Origin: Viola odorata
Lineage: Eukaryota > Streptophyta > Magnoliopsida > Malpighiales > Violaceae
Reading direction: 5' to 3'
Assembly: GCA_963691705.1 (NCBI GenBank)
Contig: OY829541.1
Location: forward strand, 51,356,377-51,420,376
DNA length: 64,000 nucleotides
Part shown: positions 7,441-50,145 of the stretch, one piece after another
Numbering within the stretch: the stretch's first letter is position 1
Layout: the number at the start of each line of letters is the position of its first letter
Translations under genes and position numbers: made by a program
Notes under the pieces: model-generated
What the model saw: only the letters and a program-made list of their open reading frames with translations
Databases searched by the model: none
Told to the model about the DNA's origin: nothing

Positions 7441-7460
7441 TGGCGACTTCACTGGGGACC
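7441..7460 (+). promoter_or_regulatory. Ogre-1 primer binding site
   Basis: TGGCGACTTCACTGGGGACC, three nt behind the LTR end. It matches the Ogre-type PBS, reported as complementary to a tRNA-Arg 3' end; I could not verify the tRNA here. Confidence 0.75.
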
Positions 7461-17310: not shown

Positions 17311-17323
17311 TTCCCTCCCCCTT
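17311..17323 (-). promoter_or_regulatory. CRM polypurine tract
   Basis: Minus-strand AAGGGGGAGGGAA directly before the 3' LTR. Confidence 0.8.
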
Positions 17324-24190: not shown

Positions 24191-24207
24191 TTTGCTCCGC
24201 TACCAAC
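24191..24207 (-). promoter_or_regulatory. CRM primer binding site
   Basis: Minus-strand GTTGGTAGCGGAGCAAA right behind the 5' LTR. It resembles the TGGTATCAGAGC site used with initiator tRNA-Met but differs at several positions; the tRNA is not assigned. Confidence 0.5.
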
Positions 24208-25034
24208 TGATACGATCCTAGTTGCGTAGGATGCGTAACAAGTAATTCCTGATCTAGTTCTAGGCTTGGATTTCGAATGCGGAAAATAACTCAACAAGTA
24301 CGAGCTTAGACCTGAGGACAACCTGTGTCAACCAACCTAATCGATTTCAAGTGAGGTTCTTGATTCGATCCCGCGACCTATATTCAACCTGTGAATATCA
24401 ACCTTGGGCGACGACTCAATGGAACGGATTTTCGGGTTTTACTTGCTATCCTAATCGAGTATCCGGACTCAAAGAGGGACAAGGTTCGCGAAGAACAATT
24501 GAGAAAACTCTCTGGTTTTTATTTCAAAATAACGTAAAAATAATGAAGAGGGTTGCTCCTTTAAATAGGAGAAACCCTAAATACTTACAATGGGAAACCT
24601 TCCCTTAATAGAACTCCTAATTACTTAATTAAAATAAATTCAGACTAATTTAATTAATTAAGGAAAATAGCTAAATAAATAATGGAAGGTCCGACATTGC
24701 AGTCACTAGAGTCGTTGACGCTAAGGCATAGAGTCATTAGCGTCAACGACGCCATCCTCTGTCTAAGAAAGCCCTTGAAAACAGTCATTAGCGTCGTTGA
24801 CGCTAAGCTTAGAGTCAATGACGCTAACCACTGTTTCTTCAAGATTTGCTCGGGTTTTCGGCGACAAGACAACTCACTGGACACTGGTTCTTCTCACGCA
24901 ACACAGCTTCCTCGATGAGTGTCTCACACTGTAACTCCTTGTAGATAAGCTGAGAAAGTCTCGCCTGCAACTCCTTGCTCCTAGCTCGAGTTATTGGACC
25001 ATTAGGTGGTAAAGGGATGCGTAGATTCGCATCA
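24208..25034 (-). repeat. CRM 5' LTR
   Basis: 827 bp, about 98% identical to the 3' LTR by eye, with a 7-bp insertion (CTAGCTC region near 24,980). The hairpin of the 3' LTR is longer here: a 14-nt perfect stem at 24,711-24,724 / 24,737-24,750, and TTAGCGTC-GTT-GACGCTAA at 24,788-24,806. Confidence 0.9.
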
Positions 25035-31676: not shown

Positions 31677-33670
31677 CTAGGGCTCGACAGGTGGGTTGTC
31701 TACCATCATCTCTTCGACGGTCGAGGGCTTGAATCCTTCATGGAAAGGTTTCAACCTGTGGTCGTTTACTTTGAAGATGATTCCCGAGTTTGGATTCTGA
31801 ATCTCAATTGCTCTATGTTCATAAACCGTCGTGACCACGAAGGGTCCCGACCACTTAGACTTGAGCTTGACTGCGAACAATCGCAAACGTGAGTTATACA
31901 ACAAAACTTTTGACCAATGGAGAAATTTTTAGGACGAAGGTGCTTGTCATGATAAGCTTTAGTCTTGCCCTTGTAGAGCAGAGCATTCTCATACGCGTCA
32001 TCCCGCAACTCTTCCAATTCTCGGATCTGCAAGCGTCTGTTCTGGCCCGCTTGCCCTAGATCTGTGTTCACCTTTCGGATGGCCCAGAAATCCTTGTGTT
32101 CTATCTCGACTAGGAGATGGCACGGCTTGTCATAGACAAGTCTATAGGGTGTCATCCCAAGTGGGGTCTTGAAAGCAGTTCGGTATGCCCATAGAGCGTC
32201 ATCCAGCTTCAAACTCCAATCCTTGCGGGACTAGTTAACTGTCTTCTCCAGTATGGATTTTATCTCGCGATTAGAGACTTCTGCTTGCCCATTCGTTTGA
32301 GGATGATAGGCAGTAGAGGTTTTGTGATGAACTCCATATTTAGTCAAAAGTGAGGCCACAATGAGATTGCAGAAGTGGGTTCCTCGATCACTAATAAGGG
32401 CTCGAGGGGTACCAAACTGATTGAAAATATTGGTGCGAAGGAAGTTCACAACCTCCTTGGAATCATCTGTCCGAGTTACTTTTGCTTCAACCCACTTGGA
32501 AACATAGTCAACTGCGAGGAGAATATAGATGTTGCCAAAGGAGTTAGGAATTGGGCCCATGAAATCTATCCCCCATATATCGAAGATCTCGCAAAAAATT
32601 ATGCTTGTTAGGGGCATCTGATTCCGGGCCCCAATGTTACCCGTAGCTTGACATTGAGGGCACGAAGTGCAAAAACGATAATAGTCCTTGAAGACAGAAG
32701 GCCAATAGAATCCGGCTTCCAAGACTTTCAGGGCAGTTTTCTTGGCCGCGAAATATCCTCCTTGTGAATGGCAGAATTTAAGAATTGTGGGCACTTCGTC
32801 CATGGTCACGCATCTGCGGATGATCTGGTCGGAGCAATGCTTCCATAGATAAGGGTTGTCCCAAATGTAGTATTTGGACTGCCTTCTGATTTTGTGACAC
32901 TCAGATGGAGAGGCATCGGTAGGATAAGTACCCGTAGCGCAAAAATTGGCTATGTCTGAAAACCATGGGAACTGAACAGCGTAGGCGAGACATAGCTGCT
33001 CATCCAGAAAGGTGTCTCGAATAGGTACCAGCGAATCATCGTCTTGGGTAGGAAGTCTACTGAGGTGATCCGCAACTAAGTTTTCTTTCCCACACTTGTC
33101 TTTGATCAGGATGTTAAATTCTTGAAGCAATAATATCCACCTGATTAGCCGTGGTTTAGCATCTGCCTTGGTCAGTAGGCATTTGAGGGCTAAATGGTCT
33201 GAGTACACAAGAACATTAGTACCCAGGAGATACTGTCTGAATTTGTTGAGGGCATAAACCACAGCCAATAATTCTTTCTCTATAGTGGTGTAGTTCTATT
33301 GAGCGGGATCAAGGAGCTTGGAAGCATAATAGATAACATATGTCTCTTTGTCCTTCTTCTGACCCAAGACAGCGTCGAGGGCTTGATTACTGGCGTCGCA
33401 CATAACTTCGAAGGGGAGAGACCAGTCGGGGGCTCGAATTATCGGGGCCGAGATAAGCTTTTCCTTGAGGAGTTCAAAAGCGGCTTTGCAAGCCTCATCG
33501 AAATCAAAGGTGACTTCCTTCTAGAGCATGTGGCACATAGGCTGGGCAATTTTAGAGAAGTCTTTGATGAATCGTCTATAGAAGCCGGTGTGCCCTAGAA
33601 AAGATCGTACATCGCGAACACATGCTGGGTAAGGCAAGGATTTTATGACCTCGATCTTGGCCTTGTCGAC
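31677..33670 (-). pseudogene. Athila-3 RT end, RNase H and integrase
   Basis: Continues the Athila pol after element C. RNase H: VRSFLGHTGFYRRFIKDFS, FEVMCDASNQ and [32 protein letters not shown] and CTSCPQC of the zinc finger, with the second His replaced by Tyr (GGYFAA instead of GGHFG); DDE residues in GIDFMGP, LISDRGT and [10 protein letters not shown]. The C terminus ends near 31,683. Breaks: TAG near 33,523, TAG near 33,298 and a stop near 32,231, plus a frameshift near 31,890. Not functional. Confidence 0.85.
33666..33670. repeat. Target site duplication of element C (pair at 49,022-49,026)
   Basis: TCGAC on both sides, inside the Athila-3 RT. Confidence 0.95.
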
Positions 33671-34240
33671 TGATAATAATTTGTCTTTTGCCGAAGGATG
33701 TATGGCGGAGCAGCTCCTCTCAGGTCAGTGTGCGCGACGGTCCACGGTACCTGCAATGCGCCGGAGGGGGTCTCCGGTGGAAACACTCCGATGCTTAAGT
33801 CAGTATGTGTACTGAATTTGGCATAGTTTAGGCCAGTCCAGTATGCTTACCTGCGTCCTTTGTGGGGGAGGTATTTATAGAAGAATGGGGCGTTCCCGCC
33901 CAAGTAAATGAGTATGGAGCTATCGCTCGCGTTAGGGTCTGTGGTTCGCCCTTATCGTAATACGCTACCTTGGCGGTAGGTGTGTAGGTAGGTATTGCAC
34001 GGTAGGATACTGGCCGGAGCGTTAACCCTGACGCGTGGTTTCCTCTAGGGGTGAGATAACTCCTTGAGCCATCCACGATGTCCGTGAGAGGAGCCGGTAG
34101 GGCCCCGTTAGCCTTTGTAGCGTTAGCCTTTGGGGAAGGTAGCAATCTTGTCCCTACAGTGGTGGTGCGAAACAGTAGCTATGTCTCTTCTCACCGGGTG
34201 ATAGACGAAAATACCCTTTCTTTTAGGTGAATTGTTATCA
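33671..34240 (-). repeat. Element C 3' LTR
   Basis: 570 bp. Minus-strand TATA box CTATAAATAC at 33,871-33,880. A repeated CGTTAGCCTTT pair (34,106 and 34,121) lies upstream of it. Confidence 0.95.
33871..33880 (-). promoter_or_regulatory. TATA box in the element C 3' LTR
   Basis: Minus-strand CTATAAATAC. Confidence 0.65.
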
Positions 34241-34435
34241 TAAGCCCAACTGAAAATGAGCCCGAGTGTTTACCAAGGGCTAACGTCCCTTCTCTTACAG
34301 AGAGTCCCTCTAAGTACCGTGGCGGTTTTGCCTCAGAGGATGGTCCTGACGGTTTTTTGTCAGAATCTATAAATCAGAGGTTTCTCTATGCCAGTTTCTT
34401 CGCATTTTTCCCGTTCTTTCTCTTCATATTTCGCC
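34241..34435 (+). promoter_or_regulatory. Upstream region of antisense gene A
   Basis: Between LTR and first antisense gene. TATA-like TCTATAAAT at 34,367-34,375, 61 nt before the chosen ATG. AGCCCAACTGAAAATG near 34,243 recurs near 34,984. Confidence 0.45.
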
Positions 34436-34819
34436 ATGGATGAACTGACTCGCAATTTCCTGATCTCTAAAACTCTGACCCTGAAGAATCTTACTGGGGG
34501 TGATATCGGCTTCCTGGAGAGGATGATCATCAAGACCTCCGAGGATGTCCTGGAGTTGCAGGGGGTGCTAACCCCTATTTTGTCTAGGCAGCTGGGAATA
34601 ACTCTGGAGGATTTTAGTCCCCTAGAGAGTTTGGCGAAACTGGCCACTGTCAGTGCTCACCTTGATGTGGTGGCCTCGATGCTGCAGCAGAGGAAAGATC
34701 TGCTGGCCTGCTGTCTAAAGGGCATGAGAGCTTGCTCTTCCGAACTGACTTCTGTCGCTGACGCTTTAAGGGAGGTTCCCGTTGTGCCAGGGGAAGATGA
34801 TGCGGGGTCCAATATCTGA
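34436..34819 (+). CDS. Antisense gene A: small helical protein, 127 aa
   Basis: Start at 34,436 because GCCATGG is a strong plant initiation context; an upstream in-frame ATG at 34,388 would give 143 aa. The product (MDELTRNFL... ends DDAGSNI) is mostly helical, leucine-rich and acidic at the end, without known motifs, signal peptide or membrane segment. It lies just inside the 3' LTR, opposite to gag-pol. TATA box 34,367 and AATAAA 34,896 frame it as a separate transcription unit. The frame is intact. Function unknown; it could be a coiled-coil partner of the larger antisense proteins, which is speculation. Confidence 0.55.
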   Translation: MDELTRNFLISKTLTLKNLTGGDIGFLERMIIKTSEDVLELQGVLTPILSRQLGITLEDFSPLESLAKLATVSAHLDVVASMLQQRKDLLACCLKGMRACSSELTSVADALREVPVVPGEDDAGSNI

Positions 34820-34895
34820 CCGCTGGCTTTGCTTCTTCTCGTTGTTTTTCTTATGTTTCTTGTATATATTTGAACGCTAAGGCCACCTGGCCATA

Positions 34896-34901
34896 AATAA
34901 A
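34896..34901 (+). terminator. Poly(A) signal of antisense gene A
   Basis: AATAAA in CATAAATAAATAG, 77 nt behind the stop. Confidence 0.45.
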
Positions 34902-35236
34902 TAGCTGTCTCTGCTTTTTCCCAAGTCTTCTCTTTTTTTTCTTGCTTGGTTGCTTGCTTCATTGGTTGGAAGTATTTGTCATGAGCCCAACTGAAAATGG
35001 GTCTTCCTCGGGACCTTGTATTTCAGTGGTCATGTTCAGGGAATTAGCAATAAATGATCTGTCTTGACTGTTACAGGACCGTCGTTTCAGTGGCAGGTGG
35101 TTGGGCGGTTCTTTGGTGCCCTTTGATTGGTTCGTTCAACGAACAGATGTGCCTGTGGCGGATCGGATTCTGCAATTGCAGTTATTTTTTTCCAAGCGTC
35201 TTAACTGATTTTTCAGGGATCGAAGTGCTTACTCGG

Positions 35237-35247
35237 CTATATAAGGG
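35237..35247 (+). promoter_or_regulatory. TATA box of antisense gene B
   Basis: CTATATAAGGG, canonical, 50 nt before the ATG at 35,290; preceded by ACTCGG. Confidence 0.6.
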
Positions 35248-35289
35248 AGTTTGGTTTCCTTTTCCTTCTTTTTTGCTTTTGCAGGTCAC

Positions 35290-35712
35290 ATGGCAGATTT
35301 TTATTTCTTGAGTTCCATGGATCGCGACTCCTTGCCGACTCCCCCGACTTCGCCGGACTCAGATCATCCCCCTCCTTCACCACCATGGAGGCCTCCGGTC
35401 CGCCGAAAAGGTCGTAAGAGGCAGGGGAAACGGACTTCCAAGACGCCCTTCGCGACTTTGGTTTCTTCTGGTTCTGCTGTCCAAGAGGGTGGCAAACGCT
35501 TTCCTTCCCCTGATTGTTCGCTAAATGAGGCTTTCCCCACCGGTGCTGGTGCGGGATTGGCAGATTCGAGTGTCAAAGGAAAGTCAGGCCCGTCAGGGTC
35601 CTGCCCAGAAAGGGAGGCAGACCCGCCTGTCCCGAATGCTGACGGGAAGATGCCATTCCTTGATGATGACGGGGTTTATCACCATGGCATTTACTGGCCT
35701 GATGAGGATTAG
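35290..35712 (+). CDS. Antisense gene B: small Pro/Ser-rich protein with NLS-like segment, 140 aa
   Basis: ATG at 35,290 (CACATGG context). Residues 10-35 are Pro/Ser/Asp-rich, followed by a basic cluster RRKGRKRQGKR (about residues 38-48) that looks like a nuclear localisation signal, a low-complexity middle, and an acidic, aromatic tail (FLDDDGVYHHGIYWPDED). The frame is intact. TATA box 35,237 and AATAAA 35,749 suggest an independent transcript. No homologue recognised. The basic cluster and disordered composition suggest a nuclear role, which is inference. Confidence 0.55.
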   Translation: MADFYFLSSMDRDSLPTPPTSPDSDHPPPSPPWRPPVRRKGRKRQGKRTSKTPFATLVSSGSAVQEGGKRFPSPDCSLNEAFPTGAGAGLADSSVKGKSGPSGSCPEREADPPVPNADGKMPFLDDDGVYHHGIYWPDED

Positions 35713-35748
35713 CCATTTTGCATTGTACCCACCTATTGGCGTTTTATG

Positions 35749-35754
35749 AATAAA
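35749..35754 (+). terminator. Poly(A) signal of antisense gene B
   Basis: AATAAA 37 nt behind the stop codon of gene B. Confidence 0.5.
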
Positions 35755-36207
35755 ATGATGCTTTCTGCCTTTCCTTTTTTGTCGTTATTTCTGTTAGCCT
35801 GCTAGTTCTTGGTGATAGCTAACGTAAGCGGTTGGCCTGACTGAGGCAATCGCTTCGCGGTTACTCTGACTGGGTCAATACTGTCGCCCTTTTGGGGAGT
35901 CTCGACAAATAACTTCTCTTTTTTCAAATTTCTTTAATGCGCTTCCACGTGGCCAACTTCTTTTACACGCGTCTTCGCCCGATTGGTGACTCAATTAATG
36001 CGGCCCCATTTTTATCCTTTAAGAAGGGCCATTCTCCAATTTCTCAAAACTTTTGCCCTCACTTCGAATTTTCCTTTTTGTCTTCCTTCGTCTTCTTCTC
36101 CGAATACCTTTTCGGCCGCTCGTCACTGTCCGCCGATTTCTCTGCGATTCTTCTCCTTTAAGGTATCAATTCGTCCCTTCTCAGATTTCCTTTTTTGTTG
36201 GTTTGCT
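35755..36207 (+). promoter_or_regulatory. Upstream region of antisense gene C
   Basis: Contains TTTAATGCGCTT followed by a G-box CCACGTGG (35,945-35,952). The upstream region of paralogue D has the same order (TTTAATGCG near 38,583, then ACACGTGT at 38,616). No clear TATA box; TTTTTATCC near 36,010 is the best candidate. Confidence 0.4.
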
Positions 36208-38336
36208 ATGGCTAGGAATAGACCTCGCCAGATTATCTCTAGGCCCATGGATCCCGAGGTCGCCCAATCACCGAGCATTTTTACCTGCGGTGTGGTTCTG
36301 AAAGCCGAATTTGAGGAACATGGTATTACCTTTCCTCCTGGGCATGAGCCTTCTATTCCTGGAAGTGATATGCGGCTTCACAATCCAGCGTGGGGCCACA
36401 GTAGGCTTCTTTATTTTAAAATGTTCCTTTATGGTTTCCGCTTTCCCGTTCATGAGTCGATATTAACTCTGCTGCGGGAGTATAGCCTTAATCCTGCCCA
36501 GATAACTCCTTCCTCTTGGTGTGCGGTTTATGCTTTTCTTCGCGCTTGCGAGTTGAAGAACATTTTTACCCCATCTATCAATTTGTTTCGCAAATTCTTT
36601 AGCATGATTTGCCACAATTGTTTAATCAAGATTACTCCCCGGTGGGATGATGCGCTCGTGCAGTCGTTTTGGCAACGTTTTCACGGCTTCAAGAAGGGTG
36701 TAGCTGATTGGAAGAGCAGCTTCTTTATTCTGGAGCTACCGTCACGTTTGTGGCGTATCAATTTCAATCAGGAACTGATAGGCCCCGTTTGGACGAATCC
36801 CGCGATTTTGTCCAGAACTGAGTTGGACCAGGCTAACGCTTTGTTAGACGAGAATACCCACTACCACATTCGTGCCTTTGCTCTGTTCAAACCTTTGGAA
36901 GAGTGCATTATGGGTGAGCTTATTTCTTTCCATATTTTCTTTACTTTGGTCCTCGCACGCTTTGCTTGCTATAAGAAGCTAACGGTTTATTCCCAGGTGA
37001 CACTGGTACTCCTCTGAACGTAACGCCGCTTCAAACTTTACCGGCCTCGCCTTCGGCCGAGGGCTCTAGTCGGGGTGGCATTCCTCCTCCGAGGAAGAGA
37101 ACTAAGACGGTTGCCCGGGGAGGGCGGAGGCCCGTTAGTTCTGTGCGAACTTCTCGCTTTGTGGAAAATTGGTTACCGGAGCGTCGCAAGAGGACGGACT
37201 CCAGCCCTGTCGCAACGACGGTAATTACTAGCGATGACGAGGATGCGGATGTTAAGTCAGGCCTTTGCCACACTTCTTCCCTTGCTGCTTCCCAGCGTCG
37301 GAAAAAACTTCGAGTGGCCCCTAGCGGACAAGCTACCGGGACATCTCCTGTGGATGTGGCAACTGTTTCTACGCCTGCTGTTTCGTCTGAGGCAGGCGCC
37401 TCTCAGCCAACGGAAGCCGCTGAGGCGTTGGAAAAAACTTGTTCTACTGAGGGAGAGGGCCTACCTATGGAATGTCCTCCCCCCATATCTGACGCTCCCG
37501 ATTCTCCGATTACTCATTGTATTCCTGACGTAGTGGTCGCACCTCCTGTGGCGGATTCGACTGCTGAGCTACCGCCTATGGTTACTCCACAACTGTTTTT
37601 TACTCCTTTCAAGAGTACTTTTTCTCAGGGCTCTTCTCCACCTCCCTCGATCAATCTTGCCTGCGGCGGTCCTGACGGGGTCCCGGCCTACCGTATGAAT
37701 CTTGCAGGGTTTTGCTTTGATGCCCTTCGTGCTGTCGGGGTTCCCCAACCTTTTTCTCGAGATGAGTTTACTGCACCCTTGATAGGGGAGATGCTGAGTT
37801 CCAAAAAAGAGAAAGAGGAATTTCTTCAACTCCCTCCCTCGGCACGCTTTCGCCATGTTCTGAATGATTCTCTGGACTTCTTCCGTCATCTGAATTATCA
37901 ATTCGAAATTAACGATCGCGAGTCACGTAATTTTTCAAGCGCATTGTGTGTTGCAAGGGTGCAGCTTGAGAAGGCGGTGGAGCACTCTAGGTTGCTGACC
38001 CGTCTTTGCGAATCGTCCCAAATAGAATTGGACAGAGAAAAATCTATCGGGAAAGCCAAGATAGAAGTTCTGGAGGCGGAATTGGCGTTAGAAAAGAAGA
38101 AAAATCTCTTTCTCCGCGAAGAGATACTTGCTCGAGATGAGGGGTCTGCTAGGGCGCCATTAAAGGAAGAGTTATGGAGGAAGAGGGTTCTGGAGGCCTT
38201 CATTTCTGGATTTGCGGCCCGCTTCAAAGGTAACCCTTCGGATCCAGCCCAGGTAGCTGATTACATCTCTATCGTGATGGGTGAGATTAGCAAAGGTGAC
38301 AACGGTTCTTCTAACCCTTCGAGGGAGAGAACCTAA
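36208..38336 (+). CDS. Antisense gene C: intact spliced gene, 681 aa, 'putative gypsy type transposon' domain
   Basis: ATG at 36,208 (GCTATGG context). Exon 1 36,208-36,913, intron 36,914-36,996 (83 bp), exon 2 36,997-38,336. Joining exons in phase 1 gives one open frame. N-terminal domain (residues ~20-240): motifs LYFKMFLYGFRFP, WCAVYAFLRACELK, WKSSFFILELPSRLW; this matches what is known as the 'putative gypsy type transposon' domain (Pfam PF04195 class). The middle is disordered with basic clusters (PPRKRTKT, PERRKRTDS) and an acidic TSDDEDAD. The C-terminal third has a coiled coil (AKIEVLEAELALEKKKNLFLREEI). Single antisense ORFs of this kind are known in Tat elements. Function unknown; nuclear location inferred. 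Confidence 0.75.
36914..36996 (+). other. Predicted intron of antisense gene C
   Basis: Donor G/GTGAGC, acceptor TTCCCAG/G, branch-like GCTAACG 15 nt before the acceptor. Phase 1. Excision joins frames 1 and 0 without a stop. Confidence 0.75.
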
Positions 38337-38964
38337 CGCTAGCGATGGTGCCTGGGCCTTTCCTTGTTTTTCTTGTTGTTGTCTCTTCTTTTGTTATTTC
38401 TTGAAAACCATTCGAACATTGTTTCTCTTGTAATAATGCTAACGCTTTGTATCCTTTGTCGTACTGTATGATTCATCGTGATATTACCGTTTATTCCTTC
38501 TTTATCTTCTTTGTATCATCGCGCCGTTTGGCAAGGCCAGCGCTGCTTTTTATGTTTTTTAATCAATCCCCCTGTCCCTCATTTAATGCGACTTGAAGGA
38601 TAATGATGAAAGAAGACACGTGTCCTTTCACAGAGGGGCGTTTGGAGCAGGCGTCTCCTACGGAGTTGCGAATGCAGAAGCGTTTCGTCCTTATTTCAAA
38701 TTTACACCTTCTGGCGCGTGCCTCACTTTATGACGCGCTACTTCGCCACGTGTCTGTTGCTGACTGGTCGCCCTTTCAGGGTTATATCTATTGTTTCTTC
38801 TACCCCCTTTTTCTTTTTCCATCTTTCCCTTATACGCTATTACGTCTTTGGATAAATACTTTGCGTCGCTCTCTCTTTCTGGTTCAAGACTCCTCGCATT
38901 CTCTTTCACGAAGGTACAAGGTACACGTCCTTTTTCTTTCCTCTTTATTTCTTCCTTGTTAGCC
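38337..38964 (+). promoter_or_regulatory. Spacer between antisense genes C and D, promoter of D
   Basis: 3' end of C, then an upstream region of D with TTTAATGCG (38,583), ACACGTGT (38,616-38,623) and CCACGTGT (38,746-38,753). A possible TATA-like GGATAAATA is near 38,850. The open frame before 38,965 is not needed. Confidence 0.4.
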
Positions 38965-41253
38965 ATGGCTAGAACTAAGAAATCCTCTGAAGAAGGAGAC
39001 CCTCAAAGGTCCTCCGGGGAAGAAGTAATTGATACTACTCCCACTTCTCTGTACACGCTGCCCTTGATTAACCGTAGACTTGCTGGGTTTTCTGCGCGAT
39101 TTCCCAAGGAATATCCCGTGCATCCTGCTTCTGAGTCGCTTCGACTGAACAGCATTTTACCCGGAAATAGTAGAATGCTGTATGCTAAGCTCTTCGATCA
39201 TGGGTTTCGTCTCCCTCTTGACCCGCTTGTAAAATTGTTGTTGGCTGATTCTGATTTGGCTCCGGCTCAGTTGAGTCCTAACGCAATTTGCGTTGTTAGT
39301 GCTTTTGTCGCACTGTGCCGTTTCAAGGGAATAGAATCTCCCACCTTAGCGTTGCTTCATGACATTTTCCAATTGTATTCCCGTAAATGGGTGATATCGA
39401 TATCGCCTCATTACGAAGACGGTTCTTTGAAGCCCTTTACCTGGAAACTTATGGGCATTGAGTCTTCTATTCCTCACTGGAAAGAGGAATTTTTTATTGT
39501 TGATCTGCCTGAGCCGTTGTGGAGGGCTGGCTTCAACGAAACAATTAAAGATGGGGCTTGGGGTCATCGGAAACCCCTTTCCAACCCGGAGGATGGCTGG
39601 TTGAAGGCGCTGCTTCAATTTGATTTTAGTGTTGATGCCCGAAAAGTGGCCAACGGGTTGCCCGTGGAACAGTGCAAGAAGGGTGAACGTTTGACCTTTT
39701 TCTTTTGCGTTGTCAAGAAGTACTAACGCTAACATTTTGTGACTGTGCAGTTCCTCCGCCTGGTTGGGAGCCCGAGTATTTCCGGAGGAGAAGGAAACAG
39801 GAGGCGAAAAAGAAAGCTGCCGCTGAAGCTAGGGCTGCTGCTGCCGCTAACGCCGAGGAAGGGGAGGCCACTGCTACCGCTAACGTTACGGGCACTTGGG
39901 TTGTAAGACAGAAACGGCCTAGGAAAGCACGTGCTGCCCCATCCGTTTCGTCCCAGACTGTTGTTTCTTCAGAGGCTACGGTTGATCCGATTCCTGTTGG
40001 GATTCCTCTTGTGTCCTCCACCACTCAGGTGTGCATTTTTCTTATTTTTAAAACTTTGTCTTTCTTTTTACACGATTTCCTTAGCACGTTCTTTGTTATT
40101 TTAGGAAGTTGTTGCTGCTTCTGCCCCCTCTACCTCACAGGGAGATATGGGTATCGCAGATGTCCTTCGCGAGCGTCAGAAGAAGGCTCGCTATGATCTT
40201 CAGAATAGCCCTTCTTCCTCGGCCGCCAATCGTAGTTCAAGTGTCCTTGGGGGCGAGGGTGCGTCTGCTGATCAATCTGAACCTGTTGATTTTGGCGGCC
40301 AACCCCATGTGCCTCCTGGTTCTCCGATCCATTCTGCGCACACCCCAACGGGCTATGATTCTGATGCCCTTAATCCTGAGGTGCCTGGAGGTAATGAGGT
40401 CTCATTGCCTAACGTGGAAGGCTCCACTAGCCGGCCAGCTTCTCCTGGTGCGTTGTTCTTTGTTCCCATGCCTCATCCGACTATTGCGAGGGGTGGCCCC
40501 GCCCCTGCCTTAATGGCTGGTATCTCTCCATACGAGCCTCCTCTCCTGCCAACTCATCACGTCAGCTTACACTCCTTTAGGGACAGTATTCTGCAGTTTC
40601 CTGCCGATGCTGATCATGATACCGTGCTTTCCTCTACCGCTTATCTGGTGGCAGAGATTTTGTCCCTTCCAAGAGAGAGGGATGCCTTTGTGGCTCGAGA
40701 CGAGCAGGGGCGCATCAATTTCCTTCGCTCTCAGGCGTTTTCTATGCTTTGCCATCTTCACTATATGGATGAGGAGAATGCCAGAGTTGTAGCTAACGGG
40801 TAAGGAGAGATAAACAGGCTGCTGGAAGAACGACAGCGTCTTGAAGATGCCCTCAATGCTGCCAAGGAAGTTATGGAGGCTGCTCGGGGAGAGGCTACCG
40901 TTGTTAAGCAAGAGCTAGAGACTGCTAAGTTGGCTTTGGAAGAGGAGAAGCGACAACGTGCCGATCTGACCATACGCCTCTCTCGGAAGGAGAATAGTCT
41001 GCGTTTTGAGAGACAGAGAAACACTGAGCTGTCTGCCGATTTTTCTCTTAATGCTGAGAAGAGTCGTTGGTACTTGGAGCAGGGTGGGGGAATCATGTCG
41101 GAAGCCGTGATGCATCATTATGGAGTTGAGGAGCTCCGTATTGATGATCTCTCTGCGTATTTTGACAAGAGAGCCTCAACCATTACTGATAGCGGTTTCT
41201 ACCAGTGGAAGGCTGCTCAGCAAGGAGGGGTCAACGCGCCGCCCAATCTTTAG
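38965..41253 (+). CDS. Antisense gene D: paralogue of C with two introns and one in-frame stop
   Basis: ATG at 38,965 in GCCATGG. Exons 38,965-39,682, 39,751-40,028, 40,105-41,253. Intron 1 has the same phase (1) and the same place as in gene C, behind a C-x-x-G motif. The N-terminal domain is paralogous (YAKLFDHGFRLPL, CVVSAFVALCRFKGI, WKEEFFIVDLPEPLW). Then a basic Ala-rich segment (FRRRRKQEAKKKAAAEA), a Pro/Ser-rich part and a long C-terminal coiled coil. A TAA at 40,801-40,803 stops the frame after 564 codons; the same frame then runs to 41,253 with the coiled coil, so this is probably one recent nonsense change. Full frame would be 714 codons. Function unknown. Confidence 0.65.
39683..39750 (+). 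other. Predicted intron 1 of antisense gene D
   Basis: Donor G/GTGAAC, acceptor GACTGTGCAG/T, branch site TACTAAC at 39,721-39,727, 68 bp, phase 1. Confidence 0.75.
40029..40104 (+). other. Predicted intron 2 of antisense gene D
   Basis: Donor CAG/GTGTGC, pyrimidine-rich body, acceptor TTATTTTAG/G, 76 bp, phase 0. No counterpart in gene C. Confidence 0.65.
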
Positions 41254-41634
41254 ACTTTTTGTTGTTTAGATGCTTTACATTTTTGTGGCTGACGGGCCCG
41301 TCCATATTTTGTACTTTAAACAATGTCGGCCTTGACTGGGTTAATCCACTCTTTTTGGATAGAAGTTCTTTTTCTGCTTTCCTTCATAATACCGTTTGAT
41401 CACTTGTCTGCCTAGGACGTTTGACGTTAGGTTTCCATAGACATATAGTTTCGCGTTGTATCCCGTTTGCTTTTTATCAGCTGTATTCGAGTAGCATTAC
41501 CATTATATCCTCCGATAGCATTTCTGAGAGTAAATCGGTGTTTCTTCCGCATCTGCTGCACTCATATTCCTGCCGTTCCTTGTTGTCAGAGGGGGCTTTA
41601 TGTCTGTCTCAACGTTGTTGTTGCAGTATGGACA
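41254..41634 (-). other. Element C spacer behind antisense gene D
   Basis: No gene. On the sense strand this lies in the 3' UTR between pol and the antisense cluster. Confidence 0.4.
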
Positions 41635-41955
41635 TCTCTCCGTCATCGTTTCACCGGGTATCCACCGCGCGGCTACTAGTTAGGATTTCTTTTGTTTCTT
41701 TTCGCCACAGATTGGCTCCCACATCGCTTCACCGGGTATCAACCGCGCGGCTACTAGTTGGGATGCCTTTGTTTCCTTTCGCCACAGATGGGCTCCAACA
41801 TCGCTTCACCGGGTATCAACCGCGCGGCTACTAGTTGGGATGTCTTTGTTTCCTTTCGCCACAGATGGGCTCCAACATCGCTGCACCGGGTATCAACCGC
41901 GCGGCTACTAGTTGGGATGTCTTTGTTTCCTTTCGCCACAGATTGGCTTTGGGGA
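41635..41955. repeat. 77-78-bp tandem repeat in element C
   Basis: Four copies, with the segment GGGTATC(A/C)ACCGCGCGGCTA at 41,656, 41,734, 41,811 and 41,888. Each holds CCGCGCGG, a GC palindrome. ORFs in both strands here are artefacts. Confidence 0.9.
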
Positions 41956-42440
41956 GTGCCTCGTCTTAGTGAGCTGTCTGATCAGGACCAGCCATCACAA
42001 GGATAGGACTTTTCACCCCCAAGCGTTGTACCTCACGTCCGTGGAATCGTGCCTCGTCTCAATGGGCCGTCTATGTGAGCACGGTTACCACAAGGATAGG
42101 ATTTTCACTTCCAGGACAGAGTTGGTCTCTCCTTGGGGCGTGCCTCTCCTTATGGGGTTACCATAAGAATAGGATTTTCACTCCCAAGGATTCCTGGGCG
42201 TGCCTCATCTTAACGGGCCGTCTATGTGAGCACGGTTGCCGCAAGAATAGGATTTTCACTCCGGGGAGCCGTTTGGGGTCGTGCCTCGTCTTAATGGGCC
42301 GTCTTTGTGAGCACGGTTACCACAAGGATAGGATTTTCACTCCCAAACGCCTTGTTATGCCAGGGCGTGCCTCGTCTTAGTGAGCTGTCTGATCAGGACC
42401 AGCCATCACAAGGATAGGATTTTCACTCCTGGCATTCTTC
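41956..42440. repeat. Second, irregular tandem repeat in element C
   Basis: About six units of 70-110 bp with GTGCCTCGTCTTA, GGGCCGTCTATGTGAGCACG and AGGATAGGATTTTCACTCC. A diverged mixture of two subunits (one with CTGATCAGGACCAGCC at both ends of the array). Confidence 0.75.
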
Positions 42441-42520
42441 GCTACCTGCATATTACCAGTAGCAAATGCACAGTGAATATCTCAATATTCATTTATTAGA
42501 ATAACTTTGATGTTACCCGA

Positions 42521-44439
42521 TTAGCTCCTGGCGTGGTATAGCCTCAGCCGAGCGATGTTCCAAGAGTTCTGCAGGGGCGTTCCCTCGAGCGTTTCCAGAT
42601 GGTATGCTCCTTTTCCCACAATGCGGGTGACACGATACGGTCCATCCCAGTTTGGACTGAGTTTTCCCATACGTTGTCCTGCCGCCCGCTTGTCTCTGAG
42701 CACTAAATCTCCGGTTTTGAGCAATCCCTCCTTCACTTGCCGGTTGTGATATTGTGCAATTTTCCTCTTGTAGTGCAGGGTTTTCAGGAGGGTTTCCTCG
42801 TGTGTTTCTGGTAGAGTATCGAGGTTAACTCGTAACCTTTCTTCGTTGTTTTCTTCTTTGAAGTGAGCCACCCGGAGGCTCATCATGCCAATCTCGACTG
42901 GTGTGACAGCCTCGGTTCCGAATGCTAACGCGAACGGGGTCTCTCCCGTGCTGGCCTTGACAGTCATGCGGTAGGCCCATAGTACATATGGCAATTCGTC
43001 TGGCCATTTCTTCTTGGACCCTTCCAAGTTTCTTTTGATGCCACTGAGGATGCTGCGGTTGGTTACTTCCGCCTGGCCATTGGTTTGGGGATGTGCCACA
43101 GAGGAGAATCTTTGCTCTATCTGGCACTCTGCGCATCGATCCCTGAAGAACTGGCTTGTAAATTGTGTCCCGTTGTCGCTAACTAGCACGCGTGGTACTC
43201 CAAATCGCATGATGACTTGGTGTTTAAAGAAACGCCAATTTTTTTCGGTGGTGATGGTAGCTAACGCCTCAGCTTCGGCCCACTTTGTGAAGTAGTCTAC
43301 CGCTATGACCACAAATTTTAATTGAGATCTGGCCTTTGGAAACGGGCCCAGGATGTCAATCCCCCATTTTGCAAACGGGCACGGTGCGACTATTTCTGAA
43401 ATTGGCACAGCCGGCTTTCGAGGAATCTTAGCATATTCCTGGCATTTCTGACAGGTTTTCACGAAGTTATGACAATCTCGTCGAATGGTGGGCCAGTAAA
43501 ATCCCGACCGAAAGACTTGGGCCGCCAGAGTACCGCTAGCAATGTGAATGCCACATATCCCTTCGTGAATTTCACGTAACACGTGTAAGCCTTCTTGCTC
43601 CGTTATGCATTTAGCGGCCGGATGGGAGAAGCATCTGCGTATTAACTCTCCGTTATAATATGTGCATCGTGCTGCCCGTTTTAGGACTTTCTTTCTCTCT
43701 GTCTGGTCCCCCGGTAGTTTATCATGTTTCAGATATTCTATCACTGGGATCCTCCAATCATTTTCTATTTCTTCCACACAGAGTGATGCCTGCTCTTCCA
43801 TGAAAGAAGGTGTAGACAGTTCTCCATAGTGCACGTCACTGGGTATTGAGGCTTCCGGATTGGCTACCATCTTAGCGAGGCTATCAGCCTCTTCATTGTT
43901 TTCTCTAGGAATGTGCTCAAGGGTGACCAGGGTGCCTTTTTCCTGTATCTCTGACAGCTCATGCTTCACTTTGGCTAAGTATTGGGCCATGATGGGTTCT
44001 CTGGCTTGGGAGTTCCCCCGAACCTGATCCATTATTAGCTTGGAATCTCCTCGGATCTTTAAACGTGTTCTGTCTTCCTTCTCGATATCGGGGGTAGCTC
44101 CGATAGAGAAACTGTTTCCAATTCTGAGTCTTGCCAGCAGCGCTTCGTATTCAGCCGCATTGTTGGACAATGGCTGTAGGATTCTGATGGAGTATCGCAT
44201 CTCCAGGCCGTTTGGTCTCACTAAGAAAACTCCTGCGCCAGCTAATTCTTGATTTTTTGCTCCATCTACGTGGATGACCCACGTATCTGTATATGTCTCC
44301 GGAGACGGTAGGCATGGACTTTCTGCTTCTTTCTCCAACAGATCTATCTTTGTGTCCCTTGTGAATGTGCACTCAGCTATGAAGTCAGCTAACTCTTGGG
44401 CCTTAACGGCTGGTCTAGCTTTGTATTGCAGCCCGTATT
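42521..44439 (-). pseudogene. Element C archaeal-like RNase H and integrase
   Basis: The second RNase H of the Tat lineage: HVDGA, AAEYEALL, RGDSKL and NEEADSLAK contain its D-E-D-D residues. INT: zinc finger with H in LREIHEG and HIASG, then CQKCQ; DDE residues in GIDILGPFP, LVSDNGT and QAEVTNRSIL; C-terminal GDLVLRDKRA and LSPNWDGPYRV. Stop at 42,521 after LRLYHARS. The segment 42,521-44,338 is fully open; an in-frame TAA at about 44,438-44,440 separates it from the first RNase H. Integrates the cDNA in the nucleus if expressed. Confidence 0.85.
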
Positions 44440-45768
44440 GTTAGAGCTCGATAGCCCAAATTAGCATTCTTCCTGAAGATTCAGGTTTTCTGAAGATTCT
44501 TCTCAACGGTTGATCCGTGAGTACAATGACGGGGTGGGCTTGGAAGTATCGATCCATCTTTCGCGTGGCCTGTACTAGAGCGAGTGCTATCTTCTCGATA
44601 GGAGCGTATCGCAGTTCGGCATCTTTCAATATATGACTCACAAAGAATACAGGACGATGCACGTGCCCTTCACTTCGCACAAGGACGGCGCTGACTACCT
44701 CGTCAGCTATTCCCAAATATAGATATAGTTCATCACCGGGCTCAGGCCTCGTCAGCACTAAATCTGATGATAGGTAAGCTTTTAGTCCTGCAAACGCTTT
44801 CTCACATTCCTCTGTCCATCCGAAAGGAGCCTTATTTCGGATGACTTTGAAGAAAGGCAAACATCTCTTGCCTTGCTTAGATATGAATCACCCTAACGCA
44901 ATGATGCACCCGGTTAACTTCTGTATCTCTTTGACAGTCCGCGGGGGTATCATATCCTGGATGGCTTTTATCTTTAACGGGTTGGGCTGGATGCCCTTCC
45001 GACTGACCACATAACCCAAGAATTTTCCCGTTTGGAATGCAAACATGCACTTCCGCGGGTTAAGCTTCATCTTGTGCTTTCTCATCACATTGAAAACTTC
45101 TTCCAAGTCAGCGAGGTGTTCTCTGAAACTCCGACTTTTGATCAAGATGTCGTCTACGTAGGCCTCTACATTTCTCCCGATTTAATTTTCAAAAACTTTG
45201 TTTGCCATACGCTGAAATGTTGCACCGACATTCTTTAGCCCAAACGGCATTGCGGTATAGCAGTATGTAGCCCTAGGAGTGATGAAGGCAGTTTTTTCTT
45301 CGTCCTCTACGGCCATAGGGATTTGGTGATATCCGGAATTCGCATCTAGGGAGCTTAGATAAGCATACCCAGCGGTTTGGTCGACTAACTGATCTATTCG
45401 TGGAAGGGGATAGCAGTCCTTGGGACAGGCATTATTTAGGTCAGTAAAGTCGATGCACATGCGCCAGTCCCCGTTAGGCTTTGGGACTAACACAGGATTA
45501 GCTAGCCAGGTCGGGTACTGGACTTCTCGAATGAACCCCGCCTCTGTGAGCTTTAGCAACTCCTTTTCGATGGCTGCTATCTTTTCCGATGAAAAAGCAC
45601 GTCGCCTTTGTTGAATAGGCTTGGCGTCAGAACTAACGTTCAGTCGATGTTCCGCAACCTCCCGAGAGATTCCGGGCATGTCTGCTGGCTTCCACGCAAA
45701 TTCTCCCTTGCATTTCCTCAACAGCCGAATTAATTGTGCGTTCTCTTCAAGGCTTAGTTTCTCACTGG
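44440..45768 (-). pseudogene. Element C reverse transcriptase and first RNase H
   Basis: RT: FAWKPADMPGI start, VLVPKPNGDWRMCIDFTDLN, MPFGLKNVGATFQRM, catalytic YVDDIL, FLGYVVSRKGI. First RNase H: FGWTEECEKAF, ELYLYLGIADEVVSAVLV, YAPIEKIALALVQA. In-frame stops: TAA near 45,181, TGA near 44,886 and TAA near 44,439, at least two fitting C-to-T changes. A frameshift near 45,745 separates RT from the protease frame. Catalytic residues are intact. Confidence 0.85.
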
Positions 45769-46380
45769 CTAAGAGATTCGTTTCACTATCCTCACTGGCT
45801 GAGTGCGCTTTTCTTCTTTGTCATCGAAAGGGTCATCTGCCACGCAAACGTAGCGGTCACAACTCCTTTGAGTCATAAGTAAGTAGCATTCGGCTACTAG
45901 CTTTTGGTCCCCTTTGATTGAGACCACGCCATCCCATGAGGGATATTTCATCCGCAGGTGTTTTTGAGATATGGTTACTCCAAAACGATTAAGGAATGGT
46001 CGCCCCAAGATGGCATTATACGGTAACGTTAGGTCTACAACCAGAAATAATAGCTCTTCGGAGCGTTTGGATGTGTCTTCCTGGAAGTACACCGGCAGGG
46101 ATGTTATTCCTGCTACCGGAATCGGTACTCCATCAATCCCAATAATTGGCCTCGTGCAAGACAATAGTTCATCGTCAGGTCGTTTCATCAAGTTGTACGC
46201 TTCCAATGAAAATAGATTCACTGCACTCCCATTATTGACAAGGGTCCTTCTTACCCCATGACTTCCAATGACGGGCGTTACAACCATCGCGTCATTATGC
46301 GGGAAGACGATGCCTTTTTCGTCTTCCTCTGAGAAAGAAAATATCATCCTGTCTAAGGCACTTATCGCCTCGATTTTCAT
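45769..46380 (-). pseudogene. Element C protease
   Basis: Begins with ATG directly behind the gag stop and in the same frame. The active site reads LVNNGSAVNLFS where the family has D-T/S-G: the catalytic Asp is Asn (one G-to-A change). The second motif NAILGRPFLNRFG is intact. About 200 aa, ends in the frameshift to RT. Probably inactive as a peptidase. Confidence 0.8.
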
Positions 46381-48366
46381 TTACGCGCTCTCCCGTTTGC
46401 GCTTTTCTCCAGGGTTGGGCGTTTGCGGCATAATTTCCTCGCAATAAGGTGCTCCCCCCGCAATGATATTTATCATGGGCATTTGGTCGCTATCGATAAC
46501 GAGCGCTTCTCTATTTGGTCCGAGGGGAACTGCGTTAGCTCCTGTGGCGTGCGAGGGCGCTTGCCTCTGCTCAGTTGTATTTCCAGTTGGGTTGTTTCTA
46601 GCTTCTTCCCTTGCCTTTGTGGCAAATTCCCCAAGGTAGCCCTCTTCGACCAATCGCTCTATAGCCGATTTTAACTCTCTGCATACATCTGTTGAATGTC
46701 CCTTGACCTTATGGAATTTGCAGTATGCATTTTCTCTTCCTCCCATGATCACTCCTGGTTTCACGGGAGCTGGGTAACGGATGGGCAAATTTCTCTGTTG
46801 GACTATTGCTAAGATCTCCGCCCTTGGGAGTATGAGAGATGGGAGGTCAGGATCGTATATCCGGCCCTTTGGCGGGTCCGTTTGCTTCCGAGTGGGGGAC
46901 CCTCCGGGTCTTCCTTTCGAAAAGTTGCCTCTCTGCCGACCAGGGGTTTTGGTGTTATGTTCTTTCCGCTGCCCGTGATCCTCGGTGAGTTTAGCGTCAG
47001 GGGCATTGTTGTTCAGGACGTTAGGGGCCACATATGGGTCCATCGGCATTCCTCGGATCCAATCTCTATTTTCTTCCTCTTCAATTCTCGCATAGTTATG
47101 CGCTTTCAGCCTTAATGCATCCAGGGTCATTGGGGGGTCCACCGTTAGCGTATCTTTCAATTTACTGTATCGACAATTGCGTTTCAGGGCCTCAATCGCA
47201 AAATCGATAGTGACCCCTGGCGTTAGGGACATTTCGAGATCAAATCGACCTAAAAAGTCGTTCAGCGATTCCTGTGGTTTTCGATGGATATCGAACAGCG
47301 CAGCTGCTGACTTTCTGATAGGAATAGCCGTGCTAAACCGACTTTTGAATTTTTCTTCCAACTGAGAAAAATTATCGATAGACCCGGCGGGGAGCCCCTC
47401 GAACCATAGACGTGTCACTCCTGACAGCGTCATTACAAAAATTTGACACAATGCTGCATCACTGCGCGTTTGGAATTGCACGAAATCCTTCACCTTATTG
47501 AGGTGAGAAATGGGATCTTTCGTGCCATCATATGACTCTGCTGGGAGTTTCACATGTCGATGGACTCTGTGGTGCCTGACACGGTAACTGAATGGATGAC
47601 CAACGTTAGTGTCGGGGACCCTACGAGGGGGACGCTGATGTGGAATTTCAGTGTCGTATCTGGGATTTTGAGGGTCATATTCCTGATGTCTCCTAGGAGA
47701 ACGGCTACGGCTCCTTGGAGTTCGAGCTCGTCGACTTCTGCTGCTAGATCTCTAGTTGTATCTAGGAGATGGATCTCTCACTATATCCCCCCGTCGATCA
47801 TCCCAGTGTTCTCTATACTCGTCACGCTGGCGGACTGCTTCGGGGATAGAGATTCCTCCCCTGTATTGTCCAGAATGGTTGGCAGGTCCGCGCGTGAATG
47901 GTGGGACGTTCATGGGGGCCAAAGGGAAAGGTAAGGAAGACGGGAGTGCCCTAGATTGTTGGGGCGATAAGGGTCGTTCGTTGACAATGGACGGGGTGAA
48001 AACTACTTGGGAGGACACACCAGGTCTTGAGGCATGAGGAGTAAATCCAGCAGCCATCTCTGTCAGCTGATCCAGTTGGGCTTGGAGAGCTGCTATTGAG
48101 TTCGCGAAAGGGTTGTCCGCTTCTCTCATCATAGATCTCCCCGCTTGGGGGGTAGGATGACTGGTTCCTGCTATATGGGAGAAGGGAGAGCAAATCTGGA
48201 ATGTAACTTCTTCCGAACTTGACCCAGGAGGAAGATCTAATTCTCCTGCAGTGACGTCCTGCCCTGGGGTGGGGGCATCAGAGGTAGCGAAGGGAAACAA
48301 GCGTCTGCGGGTGTTGTATGGGATGTTGGAAGTTCGGGACAGCGTCGGATCTGACTCTGAGGCCAT
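46381..48366 (-). pseudogene. Element C gag
   Basis: ATG at 48,366 (MASESDPTLS). N-terminal disordered part, Arg/Ser-rich segment, capsid-like domain (KLPAESYDGTKDPISHLN, LWFEGLPAGSIDNFSQLEEKF, ALFDIHRKPQESLNDFL) and a knuckle-like CKFHKVKGHSTDVC near 46,690-46,730. One internal TAG near 47,751; the frame ends in TAA at 46,381-46,383, and an ATG in the same frame follows at once. Gag and protease are thus separated only by a stop, as in some Tat elements. Confidence 0.85.
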
Positions 48367-48451: not shown

Positions 48452-49021
48452 TGATAATAATTTGTCTTTTGCCGAAGGATGTATGGCGGAGCAGCTCCTC
48501 TCAGGTCAGTGTGCGCGACGGTCCACGGTACTTGCAATGCGCCGGAGGGGGTCTCCGGCGGAAACACTCCGATGCTTAAGTCAGTATGTGTACTGAATTT
48601 GGCATAGTTTAGGCCAGTCCAGTATGCTTACCTACCTCCTTTGTGGGGGAGGTATTTATAGAAGAATGGGGCGTTCCCGCCCAAGTAAATGAGTATGGAG
48701 CTATCGCTCGCGTTAGGGTCTGTGGTTCGCCCTTATCGTAATACGCTACCTTGGCGGTAGGTGTGTAGGTAGGTATTGCACGGTAGGATACTGGCCGGAG
48801 CGTTAACCCTGACGCGTGGTTTCCTCTGGGGGTGAGATAACTCCTTGAGCCATCCACGAGGTCCGTGAGAGGAGCCGGTAGGGCCCCGTTAGCCTTTGTA
48901 GCGTTAGCCTTTGGGGAAGGTAGCAATCTTGTCCCTACCGTGGTGGTGCGAAACAGTAGCTATGTCTCTTCTCACCGGGTGATAGACGAAAATACCCTTT
49001 CTTTTAGGTGAATTGTTATCA
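48452..49021 (-). repeat. Element C 5' LTR
   Basis: 570 bp, about 98.8% identical to the 3' LTR by eye. TATA box (minus strand) at 48,652-48,661. Confidence 0.95.
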
Positions 49022-49809
49022 TCGACCTCAATTCCTTTGTTGGAGACTATGTGACCCAAAACGAGGGCTCGATCTACCATGAAGTGGCATTTCTCGAAGT
49101 TGAAAACCAGATTGGTCTCGACCCATCTCTGAAGGCATTTCCGCAAATTGGACATACACTCCGCAAAGGAATTTCCATAGATCGTGAAATCATCCATGAA
49201 GACTTCAATACCATTTTCCACTAGCTCGAAGAAGATGCTAACCATGCAACGTTGAAACGTGGCGGGGGCGTTACAGAGGCCATAAGGCATACGCCGATAA
49301 GCGAAGGTTCCAAAGGGATATGTGAAAGTTGTCTTTTCCTGGTCTTCGGGGGCAACAGGAATCTGATGAAACCCAAAATAACCATTTAAACAGCAATAAT
49401 GAGCCTTGCCCGCGAGACGCTCCAACATCTGGTCTATAAACGGGAGAGGAAAATGGTCTTTCCTTGTGGCGGCATTCAGCCTTCTATAGTCAATACATAC
49501 TCGCCAACTATTCTGGATTCTTGTGGGAATAGAATCGCCATCTTGCCCAATGGTGATGGTAATGCCAGTTTTCTTGGGCACGACTTGGATCGGGCTGACC
49601 CAAGGGCTGTCAGAAATGGGGTAAATCACCCCTGCATCTAGTAACTTCAGAACTTCTTTCCTCACGACTTCCATCATAGGCGGGTTCAACCTGCGCTGGG
49701 GTTGGCGAATGGTTTTGGTGGTGTCCTCTAGATGGATACGATGAGTGCATAACGCTGGAGACAAGCCCTTGACTTCTTTACGGGCTTTGAGTCGATCCTT
49801 CTTCTCCAA
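49022..49809 (-). pseudogene. Athila-3 reverse transcriptase, first part
   Basis: GLSPALCTHRIHLED, RVCIDYRRLNAATRKDHFPL, FIDQMLERLAGK, YPFGTFAYRRMPYGLCNAPA and the catalytic VFMDDF are diagnostic for Athila. The frame is open to 49,022, where element C interrupts it, and resumes at 33,670. In HFPL...GYFGFHQIP some residues are changed (LNGYFG in place of LDG), which may affect a catalytic Asp. Confidence 0.85.
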
Positions 49810-50145
49810 GATGGAAGTTTGAAGCAGCCTCGACTAGGGTAAGACTTAAGTTGATGGTTTCCGAGTGCTGTAAGTACCCTTTTTTGGCCAGCGCAATGGA
49901 GAGCACTTCCTTGGATAGTTTTGACACTAAGGAGTCAATTACCTTTTCCCTCAAAGTAACATTCTCTCCTCCATTGCCTAGGACCTGTCTTGGTTAGTGA
50001 TCATGTGAGGTCCTTCCAAAGAGATCAGTCCGCTTTTGACCAAGTGATCAACCTTTCCTCTAAGAGCAGAGCAATTTTCTAGGGTGTGGCCCTAAATTCC
50101 GGCATAGCACGTGCGTCTAGCATCAGGATCATGCTATTTTGGGAT
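49810..50145 (-). pseudogene. Ogre-type gag end and linker fused to Athila RT
   Basis: At 50,010-50,140 the minus strand encodes a broken copy of the Ogre zinc-knuckle (GHTLENCSALRGKVDHL). At 49,790-49,860 it matches Ogre-1 9,290-9,372 closely (KKDRL, AR, EEV-type codons). The distance between both landmarks is similar in Ogre-1. From 49,790 on, the frame is Athila RT. Stops inside. Confidence 0.6.

Follow-up and report, generated by a model that had tools for sequence, protein, structure and literature searches.

A long terminal repeat (LTR) retrotransposon with its own set of antisense protein genes lies in a 64,000-nucleotide stretch of the Viola odorata genome (GenBank assembly GCA_963691705.1, contig OY829541.1, positions 51,356,377 to 51,420,376 of the forward strand), called here the window, in whose coordinates all positions are given. 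Judged by its sequence features, the element is a Retand-type Ty3/gypsy retrotransposon. Its gag-pol runs on the minus strand, and four plus-strand genes, A to D, occupy the interval between the end of pol (42,521) and the 3′ LTR. All four antisense frames are under purifying selection, and two of them, C and D, form a diverged, spliced pair that encodes the TRP28 domain. The same element holds a large excess of a dispersed six-base word, CTAACG. Taken together, these features suggest that the TRP28 pair may regulate the element by recognizing its DNA.

Four antisense genes and a spliced TRP28 pair

The antisense genes have the following structure:

34,436-34,819, plus strand: gene A, a single open frame of 127 amino acids; TATA box at 34,368-34,373, AATAAA at 34,896
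35,290-35,712, plus strand: gene B, a single open frame of 140 amino acids; TATATAA at 35,238
36,208-36,913, plus strand: gene C exon 1, Transposase_28 (TRP28, PF04195; E = 2.5e-10, 40.9 bits)
36,914-36,996, plus strand: gene C intron, phase 1, 83 nucleotides
36,997-38,336, plus strand: gene C exon 2, open frame; basic linker and charged C-terminal part, as read
38,965-39,682, plus strand: gene D exon 1, Transposase_28 (PF04195; E = 2.2e-07, 31.5 bits), paralog of C
39,683-39,750, plus strand: gene D intron 1, phase 1, at a place homologous to the C intron in the C/D alignment
39,751-40,028, plus strand: gene D exon 2, basic linker
40,029-40,104, plus strand: gene D intron 2, length 68-77 among copies
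40,105-41,253, plus strand: gene D exon 3, charged C-terminal part; in-frame TAA at 40,801-40,803 in the window copy

PF04195, whose cut-off is 26.2 bits, is the sole Pfam family to score above its cut-off in the antisense genes. At the protein level, C and D share 34% identity across 191 amino acids (E = 3e-37). Gene A has no Pfam match above cut-off, DUF1357 alone appearing below threshold (E = 0.24), and a protein search with it returned no match. Gene B, likewise without a Pfam match, encodes a protein read as rich in proline and as having a basic patch; a stretch of 30-34 amino acids at its C-terminus recurs in other families. No match came from a PDB profile search or from tblastn against plasmids, and none was confirmed in scans of IMG/VR and GTDB contigs with the TRP28 alignment.

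Frame length alone does not mark out the two small genes. In 2,000 runs over 34,242-36,207, the probability of a longest frame of at least 128 amino acids was 0.14, and that of two such frames 0.01; an ATG frame of at least 339 amino acids arose in 0 of 1,000 runs of a second-order Markov null. Codon usage favours A (0.24 in frame, next best 0.05) and does not favour B (0.12 in frame against 0.14 on the other strand). The gene status of A and B is settled by selection between copies rather than by the length of their frames.

Selection among copies in the same genome

Copies were sought in the whole assembly, 699 Mb in 26 contigs. With the frame of D exon 1 (38,965-39,723), 150 of 13,736 first-look candidates were scored, and all 150, the window included, were 94-100% identical; the search with C exon 1 scored 150 of 13,859. 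Twenty copies were picked from the D list, several of which cover only part of the region. The copies are related to one another, so their variant counts are not independent, and the nonsynonymous-to-synonymous ratio of D is biased downwards because the copies were chosen by the D protein. The copies covering at least 80% of each part (of 20), those free of stops and frameshifts where counted, and the ratio per site for variants present in at least two copies are as follows:

Gene A: 18 copies; 14 of 18 free of stops and frameshifts; ratio 0.11
Gene B: 18 copies; 13 of 18; ratio 0.30
Gene C exon 1: 19 copies; 13 of 19; ratio 0.14
Gene C exon 2: 18 copies; 8 of 18; ratio 0.33
Gene D exon 1: 20 copies; 16 of 20; ratio 0.05
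Gene D exon 2: 19 copies; ratio 0.34
Gene D exon 3 before the stop position: 17 copies; ratio 0.29
Gene D exon 3 after the stop position: 16 copies; ratio 0.22

Three noncoding spacers read as if they were coding gave shared-variant ratios of 0.46, 0.55 and 0.63. Variants seen in single copies followed the same direction, with 0.31-0.65 in the genes versus 0.69-0.82 in the spacers. Among the copies there is little change in start codons, TATA boxes, poly(A) signals or splice sites, while the lengths of the D introns vary. The TATA stretch of gene A is identical in 17 of 18 copies and its AATAAA in 18 of 18; for gene B, TATATAA is retained in at least 17 of 18 and AATAAA in 19 of 19. The C intron, whose counts rest on the four commonest variants among the copies, keeps its GT in at least 18 of 19 and its AG, visibly altered in one copy, in at least 16 of 19, and measures 83 nucleotides in 18 copies and 82 in one. 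D intron 1 has GT in 20 of 20 and AG in at least 19 of 20 (68 nucleotides in 17 copies, 69 in three), and D intron 2 has GT in 18 of 19, with one loss, and AG in 19 of 19.

Chance frames are ruled out for all four by this selection between copies, and that the four antisense genes are real is beyond reasonable doubt. An earlier note, made from the sequence of the window, had proposed a set of four open genes on this strand, and had looked to missing frames or a ratio of nonsynonymous to synonymous rates (dN/dS) near 1 in other copies as evidence to the contrary. The frames are kept, with ratios below those of the noncoding controls, which backs the set as protein genes; the TATA boxes and AATAAA signals that the note ascribed to A and B are present and kept as well. 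Its description of C (36,208-38,336) and D (38,965-41,253) as uninterrupted frames has to be revised: C needs one intron, and D needs two and is broken in the window copy by an in-frame stop that 0 of 16 readable copies share.

The same data bear on the idea that the antisense transcripts act as RNA, for example as double-stranded or small interfering RNA, and that the frames are incidental. This role is raised as a possibility in PMC7264820. As the sole explanation it is barely credible, being contradicted by the below-control ratios in every frame and by the conserved splice sites; antisense RNA may have a role in addition to that of the proteins.

Age of the C/D pair

With the TRP28 proteins P0001 and P0002 as queries, at least 136 and at least 142 places were found in the same genome. 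Nine further loci (L029-L037), fetched from these lists, fall by DNA identity into at least four other families. Each has a D-like gene, as the choice of loci ensured, with a stretch resembling C exon 1 or exon 2 upstream; L033 and L034 have the C-like exon 2 only. A-like frames occur in L031 and L033 (58% and 71% identical), gene A often falling outside the fetched stretch, and the C-terminal stretch of gene B is matched in L031, L032, L036 and L037. An unrooted tree of 19 TRP28 sequences splits window C and six C-like rows from the other twelve with a support of 1.000. The duplication therefore predates the families that show both genes, and C and D are almost certainly an ancient duplicated pair. 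Recent capture of host genes, or a nested insertion, is not supported as the origin of the cluster, since other families share the pair.

Two of these loci have further peculiarities. At L031:6582-9999, a second TRP28 locus is accompanied by frames resembling A, B and the start of C, their order preserved, as though they belonged to a neighbouring element of the clade. L034 contains a direct repeat (4622-5762 and 7300-8440; 1,141 bp, 98.8% identical) that includes D-like sequence.

A dispersed CTAACG word in the window element

Counting one LTR and omitting the tandem arrays, the window element has 29 CTAACG sites, where 4.3 are expected under a second-order Markov model and 6.8 from composition; the remainder of the window has 8 against 10.4 expected. 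The sites are distributed as follows:

33,930-47,609, both strands: dispersed CTAACG sites, 3 in the LTR, 14 in 34,242-41,253, 1 at 41,425 and 11 in gag-pol

By sequence class, eight are in antisense coding sequence, eleven in gag-pol, nine in noncoding DNA (LTR, introns and spacers) and one across a stop codon; the tandem arrays have none. The motif was spotted post hoc, as a recurring GCTAACG noticed while reading the sequence, and for this reason all words were ranked. Among 2,080 six-base words compared with synonymous shuffles, CTAACG ranks first both in the antisense coding sequence (8 vs 2.1) and in gag-pol (11 vs 2.1). In noncoding DNA it is second (9 vs 0.9) to GCTAAC, which overlaps it. 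Its scores sum to 14.3; among words that do not overlap it the highest sum, 5.4, belongs to its own one-base variant CAAACG. Four of the 18 one-base variants are enriched too (CTACCG, CTGACG, CAAACG and, weakly, CTATCG), as for a putative degenerate binding site. CTAACG or GCTAAC is also the top word in the window element and in each of five copies tested singly, and among the 20 copies the six noncoding sites diverge by 0.0275 compared with 0.0558 for other noncoding bases. It is very probable that the motif is under selection.

Two other signals containing similar letters were considered. A mitosis-type MYB element, with AACGG, was set aside, a G following CTAACG in only 7 of 32 sites (both LTRs counted). 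The branch-point signal CTAAC was ruled out, CTAACA, CTAACC and CTAACT being without significant enrichment.

The sites are split 13 to 16 between the strands, which favours DNA over RNA as the functional form of the word. Were the word an RNA signal, serving packaging, processing or stability in the sense genome or in antisense transcripts, one observation would fit: of the 25 window sites in the antisense region and gag-pol, 19 are on the same strand as the local gene (p = 0.015). Sites in the LTR, spacers and introns are enriched too, and in other families the orientation is mixed or reversed (4:15 in L031, 14:12 in L033). Hence an RNA motif is quite improbable.

Related words in other families

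The window and eight of the nine other loci show enrichment of the core TAACG (p < 0.02). When words of one or two letters are omitted, a TAACG word stands first or second among 1,455-1,831 words in seven of the nine loci; its best rank is 27th in L034 and 11th in L037. What differs between families is the preceding base, which is mainly C in the window family and L032 and mainly A in L029-L031 and L035-L036. The counts of C and A before TAACG are:

Window 29:4, L032 13:8, L033 10:14, L034 2:4
L029 2:10, L030 4:16, L031 2:11
L035 4:12, L036 4:13, L037 0:7

In the integrase and reverse transcriptase coding pieces of six loci, 27 TAACG were counted versus 13.1 under synonymous shuffling, and 0 of 300 shuffles reached 27. 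In L035 and L036, TATCGC (GCGATA) is enriched beside ATAACG and is perhaps a second accepted form of the word.

When window sites were compared with five loci of other families (70-74% identical), positions coincided in 9 of 55 comparisons; these draw repeatedly on the same window sites, and L032 and L033 belong to a single family. With so few shared positions, the excess in the window family is explained not by shared ancestry but by upkeep with turnover. The broader possibility that the excess is a by-product of composition, mutation bias or common descent draws on the examination of a single genome, on the window element's retaining more CpG than three of four control stretches, and on some family pairs' sharing sites by position above control. 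It is nevertheless improbable: the excess survives synonymous shuffles and Markov nulls up to order 3, six control stretches of the window are all without TAACG enrichment, CTAACG outnumbers its reversed form 29 to 3, and the window sites are mostly non-homologous to those of other families.

A possible self-recognition system

The antisense module is a set of four small host-style genes, A and B with recognizable core promoters and poly(A) signals and C and D with introns. In the proposed mechanism, at least one member of the C/D pair would bind double-stranded DNA at the TAACG-type words scattered along the element and its LTR. The module would then act on its own family, opening chromatin or setting LTR output, as VANC proteins do for VANDAL transposons. 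A degenerate word that is present on both strands and in all parts of an element, exceeds expectation at synonymous sites and shifts between families is the trace expected of a sequence-specific DNA-binding protein. The element's TRP28 pair is the obvious candidate binder, because TRP28 is predicted to bind DNA (PMC11963269) and the protein of the Grande antisense open reading frame (aORF), which is transcribed from its own promoter, is nuclear (PMC7264820).

The closest working model is the VANC system. VANC targets in Arabidopsis lie in noncoding tandem arrays in one orientation, and the word enriched in one family differs from those of others (Hosaka 2017, PMC5735166). The VANDAL and window elements are alike in carrying their own genes beside a short enriched word that differs between related families (PMC5735166). 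VANC is encoded by a Mutator-like element, and the window antisense proteins match PF04195 instead. The window element is not a member of the VANC system: the element type and the protein differ, and its sites are not in arrays.

The genes, the selection on them, the age of the pair, the excess of the motif and its variation between families are shown by the sequences; antisense transcription, binding to DNA, a connection of the word with TRP28 and any influence on silencing are inferred from them. As an explanation of the whole, a TRP28 pair that would act as a VANC-comparable, sequence-specific DNA-binding regulator of the element is the best available and falls just short of an even chance. 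Binding of the word by an element-encoded protein, taken by itself, stands about even. Possible, with somewhat less confidence, is the specific form in which a Retand-type antisense TRP28 pair recognizes a family-specific xTAACG from the LTR through gag-pol and counters silencing or drives transcription of that family alone. The anti-silencing effect itself is more tentative still. A role in regulation or escape from silencing was already suggested in the earlier note, and the motif would make it testable.

Several observations weigh against the proposed binding and regulation. In the antisense coding sequence the lead of CTAACG is thin (2.87 vs 2.77 for the next word), and much of the excess disappears under a fourth-order Markov model, of which TAACG is itself a part (mean 17.5, maximum 32). 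The eight coding sites, one of which only the window copy has, diverge like other coding bases (0.0459 vs 0.0484). Of the 14 sites in the window's antisense region, 12 share one orientation, which is unexpected for a strand-blind site. L037 is without a significant TAACG excess and that of L034 is weak; of 59 words with the composition of TAACG, 2 are as frequent as it in the window, 7 in L035 and 28 in L037. CTAACG is not in excess in the pol pieces of other families (3 vs 2.2). Retention of sites between the window and other families is near control (0.14-0.18 vs 0.10-0.16), and some other family pairs share more (4 of 7 for L032-L036, 3 of 7 for L030-L036). An AlphaFold model of D had a mean predicted local distance difference test (pLDDT) score of 45.9, too low for a fold search. 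There are also differences from VANC: VANDALs are DNA transposons with the word mainly in noncoding tandem arrays, whereas the window element is a Ty3/gypsy retrotransposon with dispersed sites that are also coding, and VANC binding and methylation loss were shown experimentally (PMC5735166), while the window counterpart is proposed from sequence.

An alternative is that the word serves a host factor, for instance a MYB-type or chromatin protein, exploited throughout the clade, and that the antisense proteins do something else, such as bringing the preintegration complex into the nucleus. The LTR is dense in the motif, with 3 CTAACG in 571 bp, the TAACG core is common to the enriched loci, and a nuclear role of aORF proteins in retrotransposition is discussed in PMC7264820. 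A host factor would have no need for sites throughout gag-pol on both strands, and its preferred first base would not obviously shift between families in one genome. This alternative is unlikely, yet it has to be taken seriously beside binding by the TRP28 pair.

Relation to known antisense genes

Antisense TRP28 genes are already known in the Retand lineage. In representatives of 63 clusters, 104 antisense open reading frames (ORFs) of at least 600 bp were reported, 57 of them with TRP28 (Vicient 2025, PMC11963269), and ORF3/4 of Silene Retand-2 are mentioned in a paper on sunflower (PMC11728184). The earlier note, which spoke of a single known antisense ORF in Tat elements, had understated this. 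Its suggestion that a cluster of four was undescribed fared better: no description of such an arrangement was found among the open-access titles and texts covered. Within the same bounds no report was found of paired TRP28 genes in one element or of a dispersed motif in such elements, and TRP28 pairs go unmentioned in the covered portion of the main text of Vicient 2025 (PMC11963269).

Like the window element, the Retand lineage (Grande, RIRE2, Silene Retand) has a long region between pol and the 3′ LTR, antisense TRP28 and tandem repeats by pol (PMC11963269). The span is ~8.28 kb in the window element, compared with a reported maximum of 6,566 bp in that source. To what is described there the window element adds two spliced, diverged TRP28 paralogs, two small selected genes and a dispersed TAACG motif. 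Ogre elements also belong to the Tat clade and have extra genes; in the REXdb survey 57% of them carry a plant mobile domain (PF10536; PMC6317226), for which the scanned pieces of the window gave no match. HBZ and APH-2 of HTLV, named in PMC11963269, are likewise antisense protein genes of a retroelement; the window element has four such genes, and the likeness drawn here is one of arrangement.

Architecture and surroundings of the element

The remaining features of the element are:

33,671-34,241, minus strand: 3′ LTR, with 3 CTAACG and 3 CTACCG sites
41,638-42,431, no strand assigned: tandem repeats adjoining pol, 77-bp units followed by units of ~80-150 bp
42,521-48,366, minus strand: gag-pol, with Pfam matches to reverse transcriptase, RNase H, second RNase H (RVT_3) and integrase
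48,452-49,022, minus strand: 5′ LTR, direct repeat of 33,671-34,241

The LTRs, 571 bp each, differ by 7 mismatches (98.77% identity) and have TG..CA ends; a target site duplication, TCGAC, flanks the element on both sides (33,666-33,670 and 49,023-49,027). In pol, RT_RNaseH_2 is followed by RVT_3 and then by Integrase_H2C2 and rve (Pfam). According to the REXdb survey, Ogre and Retand have RNase H, a second RNase H (aRH) and then integrase in this order (PMC6317226). The LTRs with their target site duplication, the second RNase H before integrase and the antisense PF04195 gene are the features that point to the Tat clade and the Retand lineage.

The gag-pol of the window copy has five in-frame stops and one frame change, though its LTRs differ by just 1.2%. 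Part of these may be natural ORF borders, or the copy may have been mobilized in trans. A 24-bp stretch across the inner edge of the 3′ LTR (34,235-34,258) is repeated 741 bp onward (34,976-34,999) at 92% identity; the two bracket gene A, as if it sat between two copies of an LTR/internal junction.

The element is apparently nested in another Ty3/gypsy element, of which reverse transcriptase and RNase H/integrase pieces were found at 48,907-49,833 and 32,234-33,295. Two more LTR pairs are present in the window, one at 6,647-28,606 (97.3%) and the other inside it at 16,485-25,034 (97.4%); no TAACG excess was found in the tested stretches of either. A minus-strand frame at 29,818-30,573 matches ATHILA ORF-1 (PF03078, 25.0 bits against a cut-off of 20.2).

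Implications

What antisense genes do in plant retrotransposons is treated as unsettled in the literature (PMC7264820, PMC11963269). A word that exceeds expectation at synonymous sites and whose spelling varies between families could serve directly to test TRP28 binding in vitro, and the spelling itself would let family specificity be read from the sequence. If the proposed mechanism is true, LTR retrotransposons would have evolved a VANC-like system independently, and a protein domain that is widespread in plants but has no assigned function would gain one. Recognition of an element by its own protein would then not be limited to DNA transposons, and the success of a retrotransposon family could partly depend on it.

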